Below are positions 49,059 through 55,639 of a stretch of DNA of 64,000 bases, piece after piece (the first letter of the stretch is position 1; each line of letters begins with the position of its first letter). Source of the stretch: Adhaeribacter aquaticus DSM 16391 (lineage in GTDB: Bacteria > Bacteroidota > Bacteroidia > Cytophagales > Hymenobacteraceae). The notes under the pieces are model-generated. The model was not told the DNA's origin and did not search any database. It saw only the letters and a list, made by a program, of their open reading frames with translations. The stretch covers positions 2,381,504 to 2,445,503 of the forward strand of contig NZ_KI421517.1 in assembly GCF_000473365.1 (NCBI RefSeq). Direction: 5' to 3'. Made by a program: the position numbers and the translations under genes.

Positions 49059-50246
49059 TTAGCTGGCCTTTCGTTTAAATAATTTTAACTTCTCGTGGTT
49101 AAATAAAAGAGCATCAAGATAAACCGAAGGGGTTATGTTTTCGAATAAAATACTTAGCTCCTGCTCCCACTCTACCAATTGATCTATCGCAATATTTATT
49201 TTCAGAACCTGGTTTTCCAGATCGGCCTGAGCATGTTGGTGCAACAAATAGCTTTTGCGTAATAACATATCCGTAAAAAGCTTAAAAGCCTCCGGAGATG
49301 AGACAAACCGGAAAGTTAATATTTGGGTGTTAGCAGGCAGGAGATAGTTGGCTGCTTCGTTTTGTATAGTACGCTTAGTTCGGCTGAGCCAGTTGGTTAC
49401 AGCAATAGCATTTCTTACCTGATCTTTTAAAGTACCCGCCAATGTATGGAGATCGGCTAATAATTTACGGGTTAATACCGGTTGAATTAATAGTCGCTCT
49501 TGCCCCTGTAAATATTCTAATAACGAAAAAGCACCAAAGTTTTCTTTCTCATTTTCTTTGCTACTGCGCCGAAAAGCTGCCACCTGAAAAAGTCGTTCAA
49601 ACTTGCCATTTTGCCAGTTATAGTTACCAGCTTCCCATATAACCCATTTAACCGGTAAGCTGACTTCCGGTAAGGTGGGAGCAATAACTAAACTTACCCC
49701 TTTCGCTAATAAAACCTGGATTTGATGCTCTGATTCCTCCAGAATTAATGGAATTTTTTCCTGTCTGGTAAAAGCGACTATCTTTTTAAGAGCATTCAAA
49801 GGCAGCTCCTGCCGGGTTGTTTTTCTTATAAAAATCAACCGGGTACGGCTATCAGTTAACTTCTGCAGCGATACTAAATCCTTTTCGGCTGCCAAACGGA
49901 TGTGAATACCTAACTGATGGAAGGCAGCAAAATTGGAAGCTTCATCGTGCACCGGCTCAGCAATAACTACATTTTGACCGGGCGCAACTAAACTGGCAAT
50001 TAATTGAAAGCGGGCTTCGGCTAAAGAAGCCACCTGCCAGGTCGGGTAATTTACTTCTGGTTCATATTCCAGTGGAGAGATAAAATTTTTATCTTGAAAA
50101 GTACTTGCTTTTAAAATTGAGTTAAAAGCAGAAGAATTATGAATAGATAAACCTTGGCTGTATTGGCGGTAATCTTTTTGAGTTGTGGCTAAATCATTTT
50201 GTTGAAATGCCCACAGGGCAAAGTATCTTGAATGAACTAGTTTCAT
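49059..50246 (-). CDS. Divergent PLP-dependent aminotransferase-fold protein
   Basis: A 395-residue protein with the outline of a fold-type I class I/II aminotransferase. YPTWQVASLAEARFQLIASL is the N-terminal helix region; GQNVVIAEPVHDEASNFAAF and LIFIRKTTRQELPLNALKKI are the substrate/PLP strands; PLILEESEHQIQ stands where the conserved Asp/Tyr pair normally lies. The usual lysine motif (S-x-x-K with G-x-R-x-G) is not visible; WVIWEAGNYNWQNGKFERLF sits in its place. The catalytic role is therefore doubtful. It starts just after the tRNA-like gene, with the cysteine-leader TonB receptor gene upstream. Function unknown. Confidence 0.6.
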   Translation of the reverse strand: MKLVHSRYFALWAFQQNDLATTQKDYRQYSQGLSIHNSSAFNSILKASTFQDKNFISPLEYEPEVNYPTWQVASLAEARFQLIASLVAPGQNVVIAEPVHDEASNFAAFHQLGIHIRLAAEKDLVSLQKLTDSRTRLIFIRKTTRQELPLNALKKIVAFTRQEKIPLILEESEHQIQVLLAKGVSLVIAPTLPEVSLPVKWVIWEAGNYNWQNGKFERLFQVAAFRRSSKENEKENFGAFSLLEYLQGQERLLIQPVLTRKLLADLHTLAGTLKDQVRNAIAVTNWLSRTKRTIQNEAANYLLPANTQILTFRFVSSPEAFKLFTDMLLRKSYLLHQHAQADLENQVLKINIAIDQLVEWEQELSILFENITPSVYLDALLFNHEKLKLFKRKAS

Positions 50247-50282
50247 TTCCTGAATTATTAAGTAGAAATAGTTAAGTTAAAA

Positions 50283-50309
50283 ACCGGCATTTTCCTACTT
50301 AATGCCGGT
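50283..50309 (-). terminator. Terminator of the TonB receptor gene
   Basis: On the minus strand ACCGGCATT pairs with AATGCCGGT around a 9-base loop, followed by TTTTTAACTT. A second hairpin (AGGCTGC with GCAGCCT, 50404-50424) lies nearer to the stop at 50475 and may act first. Confidence 0.7.
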
Positions 50310-50474
50310 AAATCAGCAATTACAGACCTGCATACAACAGCAGCAGGTAAGGTCTTTCAGGGGTAAAATCATTTTTATATAAATAAATACTTTGAATTTT
50401 GGAAGGCTGCTCTAACCGCAGCCTGACCAGATTAAATTGTTTTTTAGCTAATCTCTAAGCTTTCCTGAGCTTAA

Positions 50475-53345
50475 TTATTTGTTTAATAAACCATCAAGTG
50501 TAACGGCTACGTAGTAAAGACCGCCAATAGTAGGGCCGGCGGCAAACTGGTGGTAACGGTTATTAAAGATATTAGTCCCACCAATTTTTACAGTAGATTT
50601 TAACGCTGGTGCTTTTACCGTTACCTGCGCATCAATGGTTGAGTAGGCTGGCACTTCGCCGTTTGCTAATGTACTTTCCCAATAAACCTTATCCTGACGA
50701 CGCCATACCACATTAAATCCAATATTTTTTACTACTTCTCTATTACCAAAACTAATATTAGTTACCCACTTTGGTGTATTAAATCCAGTTAAGAAAATAT
50801 CCGGGTTTGGATTTTTAGAAAGTGTATTATAATTAGCATTTCCGGAAATAGTATATCTTTTATAAAAGTTATAAGTAAGGCCCAACGATCCACCATAACT
50901 TTTGTAGATATTTTTAGCATTGGTATATACCCGGTAGCGATTTTGTCTCGATCTGGTTAACATATCAATTACTGCCGCATCAGAACCTACTTTACCTGAT
51001 GTTGGCACCGCCACTTCTACCTGCCCTAAGAAACCGGTGTAACGGTTCTGGTAAGCATCCACATCAACAATTAAGGAATTATTTAGCAAAACGCTTTTGT
51101 AACCAATTTCAAAAGAATTCACTTTTTCTGGCTGCATGGTTGGCAGGTTTGCCACCTGAAGCACATCCCGGTTCTTCAACGCAGCTTCATTTCTGTTCAT
51201 TCCACTAGCCACATCAGCATTTACAGCCGCCGTAAATCTATCAAAAGATGCCAGGGTGTAAGAGTTTTCCAGGAAGCCAATTCCTTCATTTACCCGGGCT
51301 AAACCGCCTACCCGACGAACACTGGCATTATTCAGGAAAGATAACGCTTCGAAAAGAGCTGGGTACCGGTAACCATCCTGGTAAGAACCCCGGAAGTTAT
51401 GATTTTCTGCTAAGGTATATACTGCTGCTAATCTTGGATTGAATTTAGGTGAAAACTCTGGATTATGATCTAATCGGCCCGACGCAGATAATTTTAACCG
51501 ATCAGCAAAGAATGTTTTAGTAACCTGGGCAAATCCGCCATACTTACTGTAATATTGGCTTTTCCCAAACGACCCGTTGGCATCAGCTACTGTTCTTTGA
51601 TCCAATGGTCGGGAGAAATCAACAAAGGTATTCCCATCTGGCTGAACTTCATAAACCCGGTAATCGCCGCCTACTAATACTCTGGCCCATTTAATCTGGC
51701 TTATCGAATATTGAAAATCGCCATGATAGGTGTTGCTGTACTGCCAAACTGCTGCACCTCCATTAGGGGCGCCATTTGGCAAGGCGGCAGATTTTACGTC
51801 CCAATTATTTGAGTTAATAACAGTTTGTTTTAGCTGATTAAACTCTGGTGTACCTGGTTCTACCCGACCTTTATCGGCTATTACTCTGGCCTGTTTCATT
51901 GCTGTTGCTAAATCTGCCCCATTGTTTACCTGTGCTTGTAGTTCTGACCGGAACAAAGCAGCCCAGTCAGCATTGCTCTTATGGCTTAAGTCCAGGCTGT
52001 AAGCAAGTGGGTTCAGGTTATACGAATTACCGGTATTCTCTTTAATATAATAAGCATGAACCGTTAAATTAGGACTGTGTAATTCAAACTTATGGTTTTG
52101 TACCGATACATCTTTTAACTGGATGCGGTTACCACGCTGAAAAACGCCATCCATAACCCCATACCGATAACCGTAACCTACCTCCACTTTATCATTTAAT
52201 TTGTAATACAATCCTCCGTCAAGTTTCAGGTTTTTTACATTTGGGTAAATTAAATCCCTTTCCAGATAACCTGTTCGTGCTACGTTAAATGTTTGGTTTA
52301 CCCCTCTGTTATTTATAGTTATGGCCTGACGGGCTTGTCTGTCATCACCATATCGGCTCCATTGGTCCTGGGCGGGATTATTATCGCCGGCTAATTCCGG
52401 AAACCTTGGATTAGCCGAGGCCAGATTTTGCGGGTTCTGATCAACTAAACCATTAGCTACCCAATCAGTACCTTTCAGGTAACTAATGTTTGCCTTAAAA
52501 GCAAAACGATTGTTATAAGCCTTGGCATACCGAACGGCTGTTTCCGTTAACAGGCTCGGGTTACGGTCAATTCCGTCTACATGGTTTATACCAGCTTTCT
52601 GATAAACACTTAATCCCTGGTATAGAAATGGATTTTTGGTAGTTAAGTTAGCCATTCCGTTTATAGCATTCATGCCATACAAGGCAGATGCGGCACCCGG
52701 CGTAATTTCTACACTTTCAATATCTAATTCGGTTGGGCCGATGGCATTGCCAAGTGGCACCCCTAACGTGGCAGCCTGCATATCCACGCCATCCACTAAC
52801 TGCATAAACCGGAAGTTATTAGGCACATTAAATCCGCGGGTATTAGGCACTTTAAAAGTTATACTGGAGGTTAAAACCTGAACGCCTTTTACATTTTCCA
52901 GGGCATCATAAAAACTGGGAGCCGGAGTTTCTTTAATAGCCCGAATATCCAGCTTTTCAATGGCAACTGGCGATTTTAAAATACTTTCCTCCATGCGGGA
53001 AGCAGTTACAACCACTTCTTTACCTAAAAACGTCTGGGTTACCAGGGCAATATTTAAATTAGATCCGGGGCCTATAACCTCAAATTCCTGAGACTGAAAA
53101 CCTACTGAAGAGAAAATAAGCGTAAATGGAAACTTTAACCGGGTTCTTAAGCTAAATTCTCCATCTACATTGGTGGTAGTTCCGGTTACTGTACCTTTTA
53201 CCTGAATAGTTACACCCGGTAAAGATTCTTTGGTGTCCTGATCCGTTACTTTTCCTTTCACCTCAACCAAGGTGGTTTCCTGCGCCTGCAATGCCAGTAA
53301 AGGAATAAAAAAGGCTAAGTTTATTATTAGTAATATTTTTTTCAT
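50475..53345 (-). CDS. TonB-dependent receptor preceded by poly-Cys leader ORF
   Basis: A 956-residue outer-membrane receptor. A signal peptide (1-21, ending LQAQ) leads into a carboxypeptidase-regulatory-like domain (about 25-105, GKVTDQDTKESLPGVTI) and a plug (about 115-235, VVVTASRMEES..., LMQLVDGVDM-like segment, ALYGMNAINGMANL). A long barrel ends near GGLYYVAVTLDGLL. It lacks the STN and SusC-specific signatures, so it is a stand-alone transporter. A 15-codon ORF ending in four Cys codons lies 55 bp upstream and may tie expression to cysteine supply, which would suggest a sulfur-containing ligand (inference). Transcribed alone, followed by its terminator. Confidence 0.93.
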   Translation of the reverse strand: MKKILLIINLAFFIPLLALQAQETTLVEVKGKVTDQDTKESLPGVTIQVKGTVTGTTTNVDGEFSLRTRLKFPFTLIFSSVGFQSQEFEVIGPGSNLNIALVTQTFLGKEVVVTASRMEESILKSPVAIEKLDIRAIKETPAPSFYDALENVKGVQVLTSSITFKVPNTRGFNVPNNFRFMQLVDGVDMQAATLGVPLGNAIGPTELDIESVEITPGAASALYGMNAINGMANLTTKNPFLYQGLSVYQKAGINHVDGIDRNPSLLTETAVRYAKAYNNRFAFKANISYLKGTDWVANGLVDQNPQNLASANPRFPELAGDNNPAQDQWSRYGDDRQARQAITINNRGVNQTFNVARTGYLERDLIYPNVKNLKLDGGLYYKLNDKVEVGYGYRYGVMDGVFQRGNRIQLKDVSVQNHKFELHSPNLTVHAYYIKENTGNSYNLNPLAYSLDLSHKSNADWAALFRSELQAQVNNGADLATAMKQARVIADKGRVEPGTPEFNQLKQTVINSNNWDVKSAALPNGAPNGGAAVWQYSNTYHGDFQYSISQIKWARVLVGGDYRVYEVQPDGNTFVDFSRPLDQRTVADANGSFGKSQYYSKYGGFAQVTKTFFADRLKLSASGRLDHNPEFSPKFNPRLAAVYTLAENHNFRGSYQDGYRYPALFEALSFLNNASVRRVGGLARVNEGIGFLENSYTLASFDRFTAAVNADVASGMNRNEAALKNRDVLQVANLPTMQPEKVNSFEIGYKSVLLNNSLIVDVDAYQNRYTGFLGQVEVAVPTSGKVGSDAAVIDMLTRSRQNRYRVYTNAKNIYKSYGGSLGLTYNFYKRYTISGNANYNTLSKNPNPDIFLTGFNTPKWVTNISFGNREVVKNIGFNVVWRRQDKVYWESTLANGEVPAYSTIDAQVTVKAPALKSTVKIGGTNIFNNRYHQFAAGPTIGGLYYVAVTLDGLLNK

Positions 53346-53399
53346 GATTAAGAATTATTTAAAACTGGTAAAATTTAAAGTGCTTTCTCTAGTGGTAGG

Positions 53400-53447
53400 T
53401 CAGCAGCAACAACACCCGCCTGCCGCATAAAAAAATTTTGCACCCAT
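53400..53447 (-). CDS. 15-residue leader ORF ending in four Cys codons
   Basis: Minus-strand ORF ATG-GGT-GCA ... GGG-TGT-TGT-TGC-TGC-TGA encodes MGAKFFYAAGGCCCC. AGGAAG precedes the ATG directly. It ends 54 bp before the TonB receptor ATG. Four consecutive cysteine codons at the very end of a tiny ORF match the layout of cysteine-responsive attenuator uORFs known from mycobacteria; the same role here is an inference. The 54-bp spacer has an imperfect AAATTTTACCAGTTTTAAAT dyad, but no clear terminator. Confidence 0.65.
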   Translation of the reverse strand: MGAKFFYAAGGCCCC

Positions 53448-53799
53448 CTTCCTGTTTTTTAAATAAATCTTTTCCATTAGCTCTTTTAAAAATTTATAAT
53501 CTCTATAGGTTTTATAGATATTATAGACAAATATATAACCTCACCTGGTTACCAGCCAAATATTTTCTATAAATTTTATGAAAAATATTTTTTTAACATA
53601 TATAATATATTAAACAACAGGTATTTCCCCTTATTACTAACAAGTGTATGATTAGATAAAGAACATAGCTTTACAGGTAGAGAAGTGAAATTTACCATTT
53701 AGCCCTCTCCCATATTTTATGACAATTCTTTAGGAGGAGTATCAAACTATAACTATATTATATAGCCATTTTAAATTGATAGCTAATCCAACAGAACCA
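53448..53799. other. Divergent promoter region, no further gene
   Basis: About 350 bp of very AT-rich DNA between the leader ORF and the plus-strand secreted protein gene. It should hold promoters for both directions. TAGGAGGAG (53733-53741) resembles a ribosome site, but no ORF follows it. Confidence 0.5.
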
Positions 53800-54501
53800 A
53801 TGAGAAAAATCTTACTGCTATTTTTTTTTATATTCTTTTCTTATGCGGCAAATGCTCAAGACATAATTATAAAAAAGAATGGAGATGAAATACAGGCTAA
53901 AGTTTTAGAGATAGAAGTAAACGTAGTTAAATACAAACGCTTTGATAACCTGACCGGGCCTACTATTTCTGTTTTGAAAAATGAATTGTTTATGATCAAA
54001 TATGAAAATGGCACCAAAGAAACATTCTCCAAAACACAGCCTCCTGTTGGTATTACAGAACAGCCTGCCGTACAGGAAACCATTAAATTGAATGGTCCTC
54101 GGGTCGGATTTACTATAATTGGCGGTGACCTTGCTACCCGATTAAAAGACGAATTCAATGTAAATCCTTTCATTACCCAATTCGGCTGGCAATTTGAAAC
54201 CCGTTTATTTACAACAAGTAATGGCACTTCCGGTCTTTTTGAGTTTGTGCCTTTAATTGGAGGACTAGAACAAGGTAAATTTTTACCTAGCCTGAATGGC
54301 TTAATTGGCTTGCGCGGACCGAAAGGGTTTGAAGCAGGCCTGGGACCTAATATTTCCTTGGCGGGAGTAGGATTTGCATTTGCGGTGGGCGCTACCTTTC
54401 AATCAAGCAATATCAATTTTCCTGTTAATTTAGCATTTGTTCCTGCTCGCGACGGCACGCGCGTTGGATTAACCTTTGGCTTTAATTCCCGACGCAATTA
54501 A
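53800..54501 (+). CDS. Secreted protein, tandem paralogue 1 (barrel-like C terminus)
   Basis: From ATG 53800 it has 233 residues, with signal peptide 1-20 (ending AANAQ). The mature N-terminal domain (about 21-80) reads DIIIKKNGDEIQAKVLEIEV and FMIKYENGTKE, and is shared with the next gene. The C-terminal half (about 95-233) has alternating hydrophobic strands (GPRVGFTIIGGD, LRGPKGFEAGLGPN, GTRVGLTFGFNSRRN) like a small outer-membrane barrel. A TTG eight codons earlier is a less likely start. The family is not recognised by name. The next gene starts 10 bp after this stop. Confidence 0.75.
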   Translation: MRKILLLFFFIFFSYAANAQDIIIKKNGDEIQAKVLEIEVNVVKYKRFDNLTGPTISVLKNELFMIKYENGTKETFSKTQPPVGITEQPAVQETIKLNGPRVGFTIIGGDLATRLKDEFNVNPFITQFGWQFETRLFTTSNGTSGLFEFVPLIGGLEQGKFLPSLNGLIGLRGPKGFEAGLGPNISLAGVGFAFAVGATFQSSNINFPVNLAFVPARDGTRVGLTFGFNSRRN

Positions 54502-54511
54502 ATTTCTCCTT

Positions 54512-55111
54512 ATGAAAAATAAACTCTTAATATTCGTAACATTTTTCTTTGCTTTTACCGGGTTGAAAGCTCAGGATATAATCTTAAAAACAGATGGCGA
54601 AGAAATAAACGCAACGGTTACCGAAATAACTTTAACGGATGTTGTTTATAAACACCCGGATTCCCTACAGAGCCTGCCGCAAACATTACCTAAACATGCA
54701 GTATTCATGATCAAATATGCCAACGGTACGAAAGAAATTATTTCCCAGACGAGTTCAGGTTTGCCTCGAGGTATGGAGCCTACGCCGGAAAATATGTATG
54801 AACTGGGCCGATCAGATGCTCGGAAATATTATAAAGGCAATGCTGTCATGTGGGGATCAGCGGCTGCGTCTGTCCTGGTTCCTTATGGTTATATTGTACC
54901 AATAGTTATCGCCTTAAACAAACCTAAAATAGGCTTAAATGATATTCCAGATGCCAATTTACTGCAGAACCAGGACTACATGCGTGGCTACCAAAAACAA
55001 GCCCACAACCGCAAGATAGGAAAAGCTGCCACCGGAATGGGCATCGGTACCGGGGCTGCATTAGTAGTTTCAGCAATCATGATCTTCGTGATCTTTTCAA
55101 CCTGGAACTAG
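54512..55111 (+). CDS. Secreted protein, tandem paralogue 2 (membrane-helix C terminus)
   Basis: From ATG 54512 it has 199 residues, with signal peptide 1-20 (ending GLKAQ). The N-terminal domain (DIILKTDGEEINATVTEITL, FMIKYANGTKE) is clearly paralogous to the upstream gene. The C-terminal half differs: two hydrophobic helices (WGSAAASVLVPYGYIVPIVIAL and a Gly-rich GMGIGTGAALVVSAIMI segment), flanking a polar part with KYYKGN and YMRGYQKQAHNRK. Same N-terminal sensor or binding domain on a different anchor. It forms a two-gene operon with the upstream gene (10 bp gap). Function unknown. Confidence 0.75.
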   Translation: MKNKLLIFVTFFFAFTGLKAQDIILKTDGEEINATVTEITLTDVVYKHPDSLQSLPQTLPKHAVFMIKYANGTKEIISQTSSGLPRGMEPTPENMYELGRSDARKYYKGNAVMWGSAAASVLVPYGYIVPIVIALNKPKIGLNDIPDANLLQNQDYMRGYQKQAHNRKIGKAATGMGIGTGAALVVSAIMIFVIFSTWN

Positions 55112-55198: not shown

Positions 55199-55639
55199 TT
55201 AGTTTGAATTATCTTCTAACAGTACATTTACCTTCTGCATATCTGACAGGTAAGTCGTATCCAGAATGGAAGCAGTTGCATCCCGTACCTTTTTCATTAC
55301 TAACCGGATTTCACACGTTTCCTCATCCACACACTCATCGCACTTACGGTAATATAAGTGGCTAACACAAGGTATTGGAGCCAACGGTCCGTCAATCATC
55401 CGGATAATATTACCTACCGAAACTTGAGAAGGATCTTTAGCCAGCGTATAGCCACCATTTTTACCACGGGTACTTTGCAATACCTGCTGGGTTTTCAGAT
55501 CAACCAGAATAGCTTCTAAAAATTTACGGGGAATGCGTTCTTCATTCGCAATATCCGAAATTAAGATAAGGCCTTTATCTCTGTTTTTAGTTAGATAAAG
55601 AAGGGCTTTAAGGGCGTATTTCGCTTTTTTAGAAAGCAT
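55199..55639 (-). CDS. Rrf2-family transcriptional regulator
   Basis: A 146-residue Rrf2-type winged-helix regulator starting MLSKKAKYALKALLYL with the recognition part IANEERIPRKFLEAILVDL. The C-terminal half has a cysteine cluster (C at about 93, 102, 105 and 110: CVSHLYYRKCDECVDEETC), where IscR, NsrR and RsrR of this family bind an Fe-S cluster or where CymR-like members do not. The spacing differs from the IscR C-x5-C-x5-C, so cluster binding is possible but not shown. Target genes unknown. It lies downstream of dnaA on the same strand (130-bp gap). Confidence 0.9.
   Translation of the reverse strand: MLSKKAKYALKALLYLTKNRDKGLILISDIANEERIPRKFLEAILVDLKTQQVLQSTRGKNGGYTLAKDPSQVSVGNIIRMIDGPLAPIPCVSHLYYRKCDECVDEETCEIRLVMKKVRDATASILDTTYLSDMQKVNVLLEDNSN

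Follow-up and report, generated by a model that had tools for sequence, protein, structure and literature searches.

A leader ORF ending in four cysteine codons before a TonB-dependent receptor gene of Adhaeribacter aquaticus, a probable cysteine-responsive attenuator with counterparts before other sulfur genes

Introduction

What does a short ORF that ends in four consecutive cysteine codons do in front of the gene for a TonB-dependent receptor? This arrangement occurs in a stretch of 64,000 nucleotides from Adhaeribacter aquaticus DSM 16391, which we call the window. A preliminary description of the locus had proposed that ribosomes stall on these codons when cysteine is short and thereby tune the expression of the receptor. 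Bacteroidota have many TonB receptors whose substrates are unknown, and a codon-level signature of the sensed nutrient would allow some of them to be assigned to sulfur from sequence. Leaderless short ORFs with poly-Cys runs were reportedly found in mycobacteria by Canestrari et al. in 2020, and stalling on such ORFs reportedly frees the sequestered start site of the next gene.

Our statements on the articles cited refer to excerpts of them. For mycobacteria, cysteine-dependent ribosome speed is presented as the sensor (PMC9031893), and six poly-Cys ORFs are predicted in M. tuberculosis (PMC9094748). Candidate Cys leader peptides were predicted in 2005 for cys operons of Actinobacteria, namely in Mycobacterium, Propionibacterium acnes and Bifidobacterium longum (PMC1262725). 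Leader-peptide-like short ORFs are described for amino-acid biosynthesis operons of Flavobacterium psychrophilum (PMC9723704) and for Bacteroides thetaiotaomicron (PMC7366714), with no mention of cysteine in the excerpts of either article. Among the matches listed for the openly licensed literature, likewise represented by excerpts, we found no description of poly-Cys leaders in Bacteroidota.

A leader ORF with four terminal Cys codons

The receptor gene and the elements directly in front of it are the following.

50475 to 53345, minus strand: TonB-dependent receptor of 956 aa (CarboxypepD_reg-like, Plug, beta-barrel)
53346 to 53399, minus strand: spacer from the leader stop to the receptor ATG, exactly 54 nt, read from the window
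53400 to 53477, minus strand: leader ORF in its probable full form, 25 codons, MEKIYLKNRKMGAKFFYAAGGCCCC-stop, with an N-terminus like those of three genus relatives
53400 to 53447, minus strand: 15-codon form of the preliminary description, MGAKFFYAAGGCCCC-stop, read from the window
53403 to 53414, minus strand: four Cys codons TGT TGT TGC TGC, abutting the stop, read from the window

The letters of the window confirm that a 15-codon ORF with TGT TGT TGC TGC before its stop ends 54 nt from the receptor ATG, as had been described. The inner ATG that was taken as its start is probably wrong. An in-frame ATG at 53475-53477, ten codons 5' of the inner one, yields the longer peptide, and three genus relatives have leader starts at a comparable distance, the first residues being MKTIVLNT (L015/L179), MKKIVLNT (L014/L183) and MKKIALNI (L019/L188). 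Because both the start distance and the residues are similar in these relatives, the leader ORF is probably the 25-codon form at 53400-53477 on the minus strand. The AGGAAG noted before the inner ATG is present, but it touches this ATG directly, with zero spacing, and is therefore unusable as a Shine-Dalgarno site; reliance on such sites is rare in Bacteroidota. In a search of NCBIfam, the leader peptide matched no family.

Recurrence of poly-Cys leaders before receptor orthologs

As receptor orthologs we took the best 80 of at least 448 relatives, and we scored their upstream regions with a run test, which asks for a uORF with an ATG start and at most 60 codons that starts no more than 300 nt upstream and contains CCC or CC(0-2)CC. 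A poly-Cys uORF of this kind lies upstream of 28 of the 80 orthologs. Dinucleotide shuffles for the same 80 orthologs (n=200) averaged 0.145 such cases and never exceeded 2, and the control genes, that is, 370 other genes in the receptor loci with at least 100 nt of upstream space of their own, had a poly-Cys uORF in four cases, one of which is cysH. The runner-up amino acid in the run test was Leu, with 8/80. A looser test, which accepts any uORF with a pair of identical residues no more than four codons from its end, found Cys before 41 of the 80 orthologs and Leu, again the runner-up, before 16. The Cys codons are of mixed usage (TGT 90, TGC 26), the frame from start to stop is preserved despite this codon variation, and the last counted CC lies 0-3 codons before the stop in 24 of the 28 leaders.

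The 28 cases come from Hymenobacter (10), Rufibacter/Sabulibacter (8), Adhaeribacter (3) and Pedobacter (2), with one each from Pontibacter, Mucilaginibacter, Segetibacter, a Sphingobacteriales assembly and a Cytophagales assembly; since many of the loci belong to close relatives, the 28 are not independent events. Judged from the shuffled and control sequences, the Cys run before the receptor is not a product of chance.

The run test was failed by 52 of the 80 receptor orthologs. Two of the eight genus members, L007 and L009, have no uORF with at least two Cys before the receptor, and the genus member L010 has one CC together with single Cys. In G027 the receptor is without a poly-Cys uORF of its own, but one stands before the cysH gene on that strand, some 6 kb upstream (L140, L141). 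The preliminary description had looked to Cys codons recurring at this place in orthologs, and had held that orthologs without a Cys ORF would speak against its reading. The recurrence is borne out by the comparison with shuffles and control genes; orthologs without the ORF exist to the extent just given, and they speak against the reading in part.

Poly-Cys leaders before other sulfur genes

The window's own genome contains 41 distinct sites (48 pattern hits) that can be read as four Cys codons in a row. We sorted these sites by ATG ORFs of at most 60 codons, counting ATG as the sole start codon. No such ORF was found at 34 of the sites, and seven lie in one, three of them inside other long ORFs and four in intergenic space. 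The four intergenic leaders precede metY (98 nt), a MoeB/MoeZ-type gene, moeZ (107 nt), which stands before cysH, a PLP gene (66 nt) and the receptor (54 nt). The leader of the PLP gene lies just behind the receptor.

50313 to 50372, minus strand: second poly-Cys leader ORF, MILPLKDLTCCCCMQVCNC-stop
50279 to 50309, minus strand: terminator-like hairpin with an 11-nt loop, ACCGGCAT...ATGCCGGT, and TTTT behind it, immediately 3' of the second leader, found by eye
49059 to 50246, minus strand: PLP gene behind the second leader, Cys/Met-metabolism-like, of a degenerate O-acetylhomoserine sulfhydrylase type

All matches of the PLP gene to Cys/Met-metabolism families are below the curated cut-offs and its shorter counterparts in three relatives gave no Pfam match, which makes its sulfur role weaker. 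A Cys-containing uORF stands at the place of the second leader in all seven genus relatives compared, with CC or CCC runs in L153, L154, L158 and L159 and with only two separated Cys in L155-L157.

A Rufibacter genome (G029) has 65 four-Cys sites and five intergenic uORFs. Four of these stand ahead of the receptor, a cysH homolog, metY and a NifS/IscS-type desulfurase (family matches below equivalog cut-offs). As far as the sequences of these genomes go, several sulfur loci of one genome share poly-Cys leaders. We also observed that the fifth uORF of G029 (L298, about 1500-1841) stands some 320 nt ahead of a further TonB receptor gene, which differs from the receptor ortholog of this genome (L008, L280).

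For metY and cysH, the counts cover the loci that the searches returned. Within the own order, a poly-Cys uORF lies no more than 450 nt upstream of metY in 25 of 32 loci (shuffles: mean 0.07, maximum 1); outside the order such leaders are rare (2/25 loci). For cysH, a poly-Cys uORF is found directly upstream in 8 of 30 loci (shuffles: mean 0.12, maximum 2), and three more loci have one before genes ahead of cysH, counted within a flank of 1500 nt that places operon heads farther off out of range.

A candidate cysteine-responsive attenuator

Leaving the downstream step aside, we estimate at roughly 0.8 the probability that the receptor leader is a cysteine-responsive attenuator in which the ribosome reads the Cys codons. 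The reading proposed in the preliminary description gains support from the comparative tests, both through the recurrence of the run in orthologs and through the leaders before metY and cysH. From these patterns we infer translation of the leader, stalling and the direction of the response. When Cys-tRNA is ample, a ribosome would complete the 25-codon leader and leave, and the receptor message would be held low. When cysteine is scarce, the ribosome would stall at the four Cys codons that precede the stop, and the stalled ribosome would bring about a change just downstream that allows the receptor to be made. Because the same sensor stands before metY, cysH and other sulfur genes, these genes could respond jointly with no dedicated regulator protein.

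On our best reading, the leader would belong to a set that functions in the manner of the poly-Cys leaders of mycobacteria, here in Bacteroidota and on an outer-membrane importer. In both, a short ORF lies a little way upstream of the controlled gene and contains contiguous Cys codons, and such leaders are present at several sulfur loci per genome, as in the window's own genome and in G029. The present leaders differ in that they belong to another phylum and in that the targets here include an outer-membrane TonB receptor; the mycobacterial ORFs are leaderless. The Actinobacteria leaders have Cys runs near the stop in common with ours; they show no obvious intrinsic terminator, and Rho is suggested there; unlike here, no transport receptor is named in the excerpt (PMC1262725). 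The present case would be a variant of Cys-codon attenuation in another phylum. If this is true, the poly-Cys attenuation known from reports on mycobacteria also occurs in a distant phylum and can govern uptake across the outer membrane.

Gene company of the receptor

We inspected a flank of up to about 6 kb around each receptor. At least two of cysD, cysN, cysJ and cysI lie near the receptor and on its strand in 37 of the 80 loci, and the Hymenobacter-type gene order is cysH-cysD-cysN-cobA-cysJ-receptor-DUF2490 gene-cysI. By this gene context the receptor is a candidate sulfur-compound importer, which agrees with the role suggested for it in the preliminary description. At least two sulfate-assimilation genes accompany the receptor within the inspected flank in just 10 of the 28 poly-Cys loci. 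A comparison with solved structures gave only weak matches, confined to the plug domain, to the colicin I receptor, and the structures thus give no hint of the receptor substrate.

Genes for a ChrB-like regulator and a chromate transporter adjoin the sulfur receptor in Rufibacter and Sabulibacter (L162, L163, L174, L176-L178, L180, L182; also L148). Chromate is an analogue of sulfate.

The neighbouring chromate-transporter-type genes could also be read in favour of a different function of the leader, which we regard as unlikely, namely that the poly-Cys nascent peptide senses the metal or redox state and that the receptor takes up a metal complex. Metal binding by Cys runs is conceivable, and a precedent exists in CruR of Bordetella, a uORF with a conserved Cys motif that controls the TonB-dependent transporter gene bfrG after transcription start, via Rho, and that senses copper through the CXXC and the RAPP arrest motif of the nascent protein (excerpt of PMC9426467). 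The window leader has in common with CruR its place ahead of a TonB-dependent transporter gene, whereas the window peptide has no RAPP and its run of four Cys matches CXXC by spelling alone. The runs before the receptors are mostly contiguous, variable in length and placed at the stop. Moreover, the same runs precede metY and cysH, and the receptor is accompanied by the sulfate-assimilation genes counted above. These features argue against the sensing of metal by the peptide.

An inverted repeat and an Rrf2-family regulator

Two further elements of the window lie upstream of the leader.

53507 to 53531, minus strand: degenerate operator-like inverted repeat, with two mismatches to TTTGTCTA-N8-TAGACTTT, the form present ahead of some orthologs
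55199 to 55639, minus strand: Rrf2-family regulator gene, CymR/IscR-like

The degenerate site of the window lies about 30-54 nt upstream of the ATG of the longer leader. We found GTCTA-N8/9-TAGAC upstream of 13 of the 80 receptors (for example in L179, L184, L192 and L221) and of 5 of the 370 control genes; of these five, the ones in L192, L221 and L236 sit in the very intergenic region of the receptor, and the remaining two, both in L191, form a single divergent pair. With two scrambled versions of the repeat, neither the receptor set nor the control set gave any hit. An Rrf2 gene is present in 6 of the 80 receptor loci. It stands directly before the receptor in genus relatives, which makes the neighbouring Rrf2 protein a candidate for binding the repeat.

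These findings could be taken to mean that sulfur control lies with an Rrf2-type repressor at the inverted repeat, and that the leader merely boosts receptor translation by ribosome re-initiation, as was proposed earlier for leader genes (excerpt of PMC4833913). Both the excess of the repeat before receptors and the place of the Rrf2 gene would fit such a scheme, to which we give a small chance. Re-initiation has no need of Cys, yet Cys is enriched in the leaders; and the repeat in the window is degenerate, the one perfect palindromic copy in the own genome lying elsewhere than at the receptor. Control of the Rrf2 type and a Cys leader may coexist. Hardly credible is the idea that a (TGY)n stretch reads as an ORF by chance, or that it is an untranslated DNA or RNA element: 37 of the 41 own-genome sites do lie outside short intergenic ATG ORFs, but the shuffle and neighbour-gene controls, the preserved frame and the association of the leaders with sulfur genes all speak against it.

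Between the Rrf2 gene and the receptor, the window holds two small genes with signal-peptide-like starts (53776-55111, plus strand), unlike the genus relatives with sufficient flank, in which the Rrf2 gene comes directly before the receptor.

The step downstream of the leader

For the change that a stalled ribosome would cause in the attenuator, we considered the start site, an intrinsic terminator and the spacer. Start-site folding with a stalled ribosome on the leader was modelled for 30 leaders with 40 shuffles each. The set comprised 26 of the 28 poly-Cys receptor leaders, the window's two leaders and those of metY and moeZ; L191 and L239 were left out, their leaders being distant from the gene or overlapping it. 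In this model the accessibility of the start site stayed the same for the window leader (0.39 to 0.39), receptor leaders with short spacers mostly showed hardly any change, and start-site release was no general effect, the mean z over the 30 leaders being 0.33. In six leaders, which have longer spacers (L192, L199, L203, L207, L218 and moeZ), z was above 1.7. Start-site sequestration by base pairing was rejected as a general switch on the basis of the mean z and the unchanged window leader. Because this sequestration is absent in the folding model, which sets the window leader apart from the mycobacterial ones, we liken it to them as a sensor and do not file it under the mycobacterial mechanism.

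The fold of the window receptor leader is unremarkable (z -1.66, equalled or surpassed in stability by 11 of 200 shuffles). A terminator scan with loops of 3-8 nt found no intrinsic terminator in the receptor leader. The receptor spacers contain 12% G and 28% C, with C exceeding G in 24 of 27, an excess that surpasses that of 141 control upstreams (p 0.00016). Since such spacers fit a Rho-type step, we favour a putative termination step of this type at the spacer over start-site sequestration for the receptor leaders. Rho-like termination at the spacer would have a parallel in the CruR leader.

Behind the receptor, the hairpin and TTTT of the second leader (50279-50309) have an 11-nt loop, which exceeds the 3-8 nt range of the scan. 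The region of this leader has a folding z of -4.1, its minimum-energy fold being built on an alternative hairpin, and a consensus fold of the second leader in eight genus members contains one 5-pair stem with a covariation term near zero. By eye only, the loop of the hairpin in the genus relatives looks complementary to the segment just before the gene start, and the sequences of this apparent pairing differ between two clades.

SAM-I riboswitches ahead of metY leaders

Most metY leaders here come after a SAM riboswitch, a further difference from the mycobacterial leaders. In the 15 sources scanned with Rfam, the SAM-I riboswitch (RF00162) was found in 8/8 metY loci and in one of two cysH loci of relatives. 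The core motif of the riboswitch is present in 37 of 57 metY loci, and in 26 of the 27 that have a poly-Cys leader. The aptamer ends 7-9 nt 5' of the leader ATG in six loci, five of metY and one of cysH, as computed by hand.

L079, 4377 to 4479 and following: SAM-I riboswitch directly 5' of a poly-Cys leader; the same arrangement in L082, L090, L102, L109 and L133 (cysH locus)

The riboswitch and the Cys leader at metY are possibly a nested two-signal control, and SAM may decide there whether the cysteine sensor gets translated at all. Extending the attenuator to all these genes, we somewhat favour the view that they form a Bacteroidota regulon with no dedicated regulator protein, in which the speed of the ribosome on Cys codons would set the sulfur supply all the way from uptake at the outer membrane to sulfate reduction and methionine synthesis, the sensor of metY being nested behind the SAM-I riboswitch. 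The leaders on which this view is built cover at least the own order and occur in addition in Pedobacter, Mucilaginibacter, Segetibacter and a Saprospiraceae assembly.
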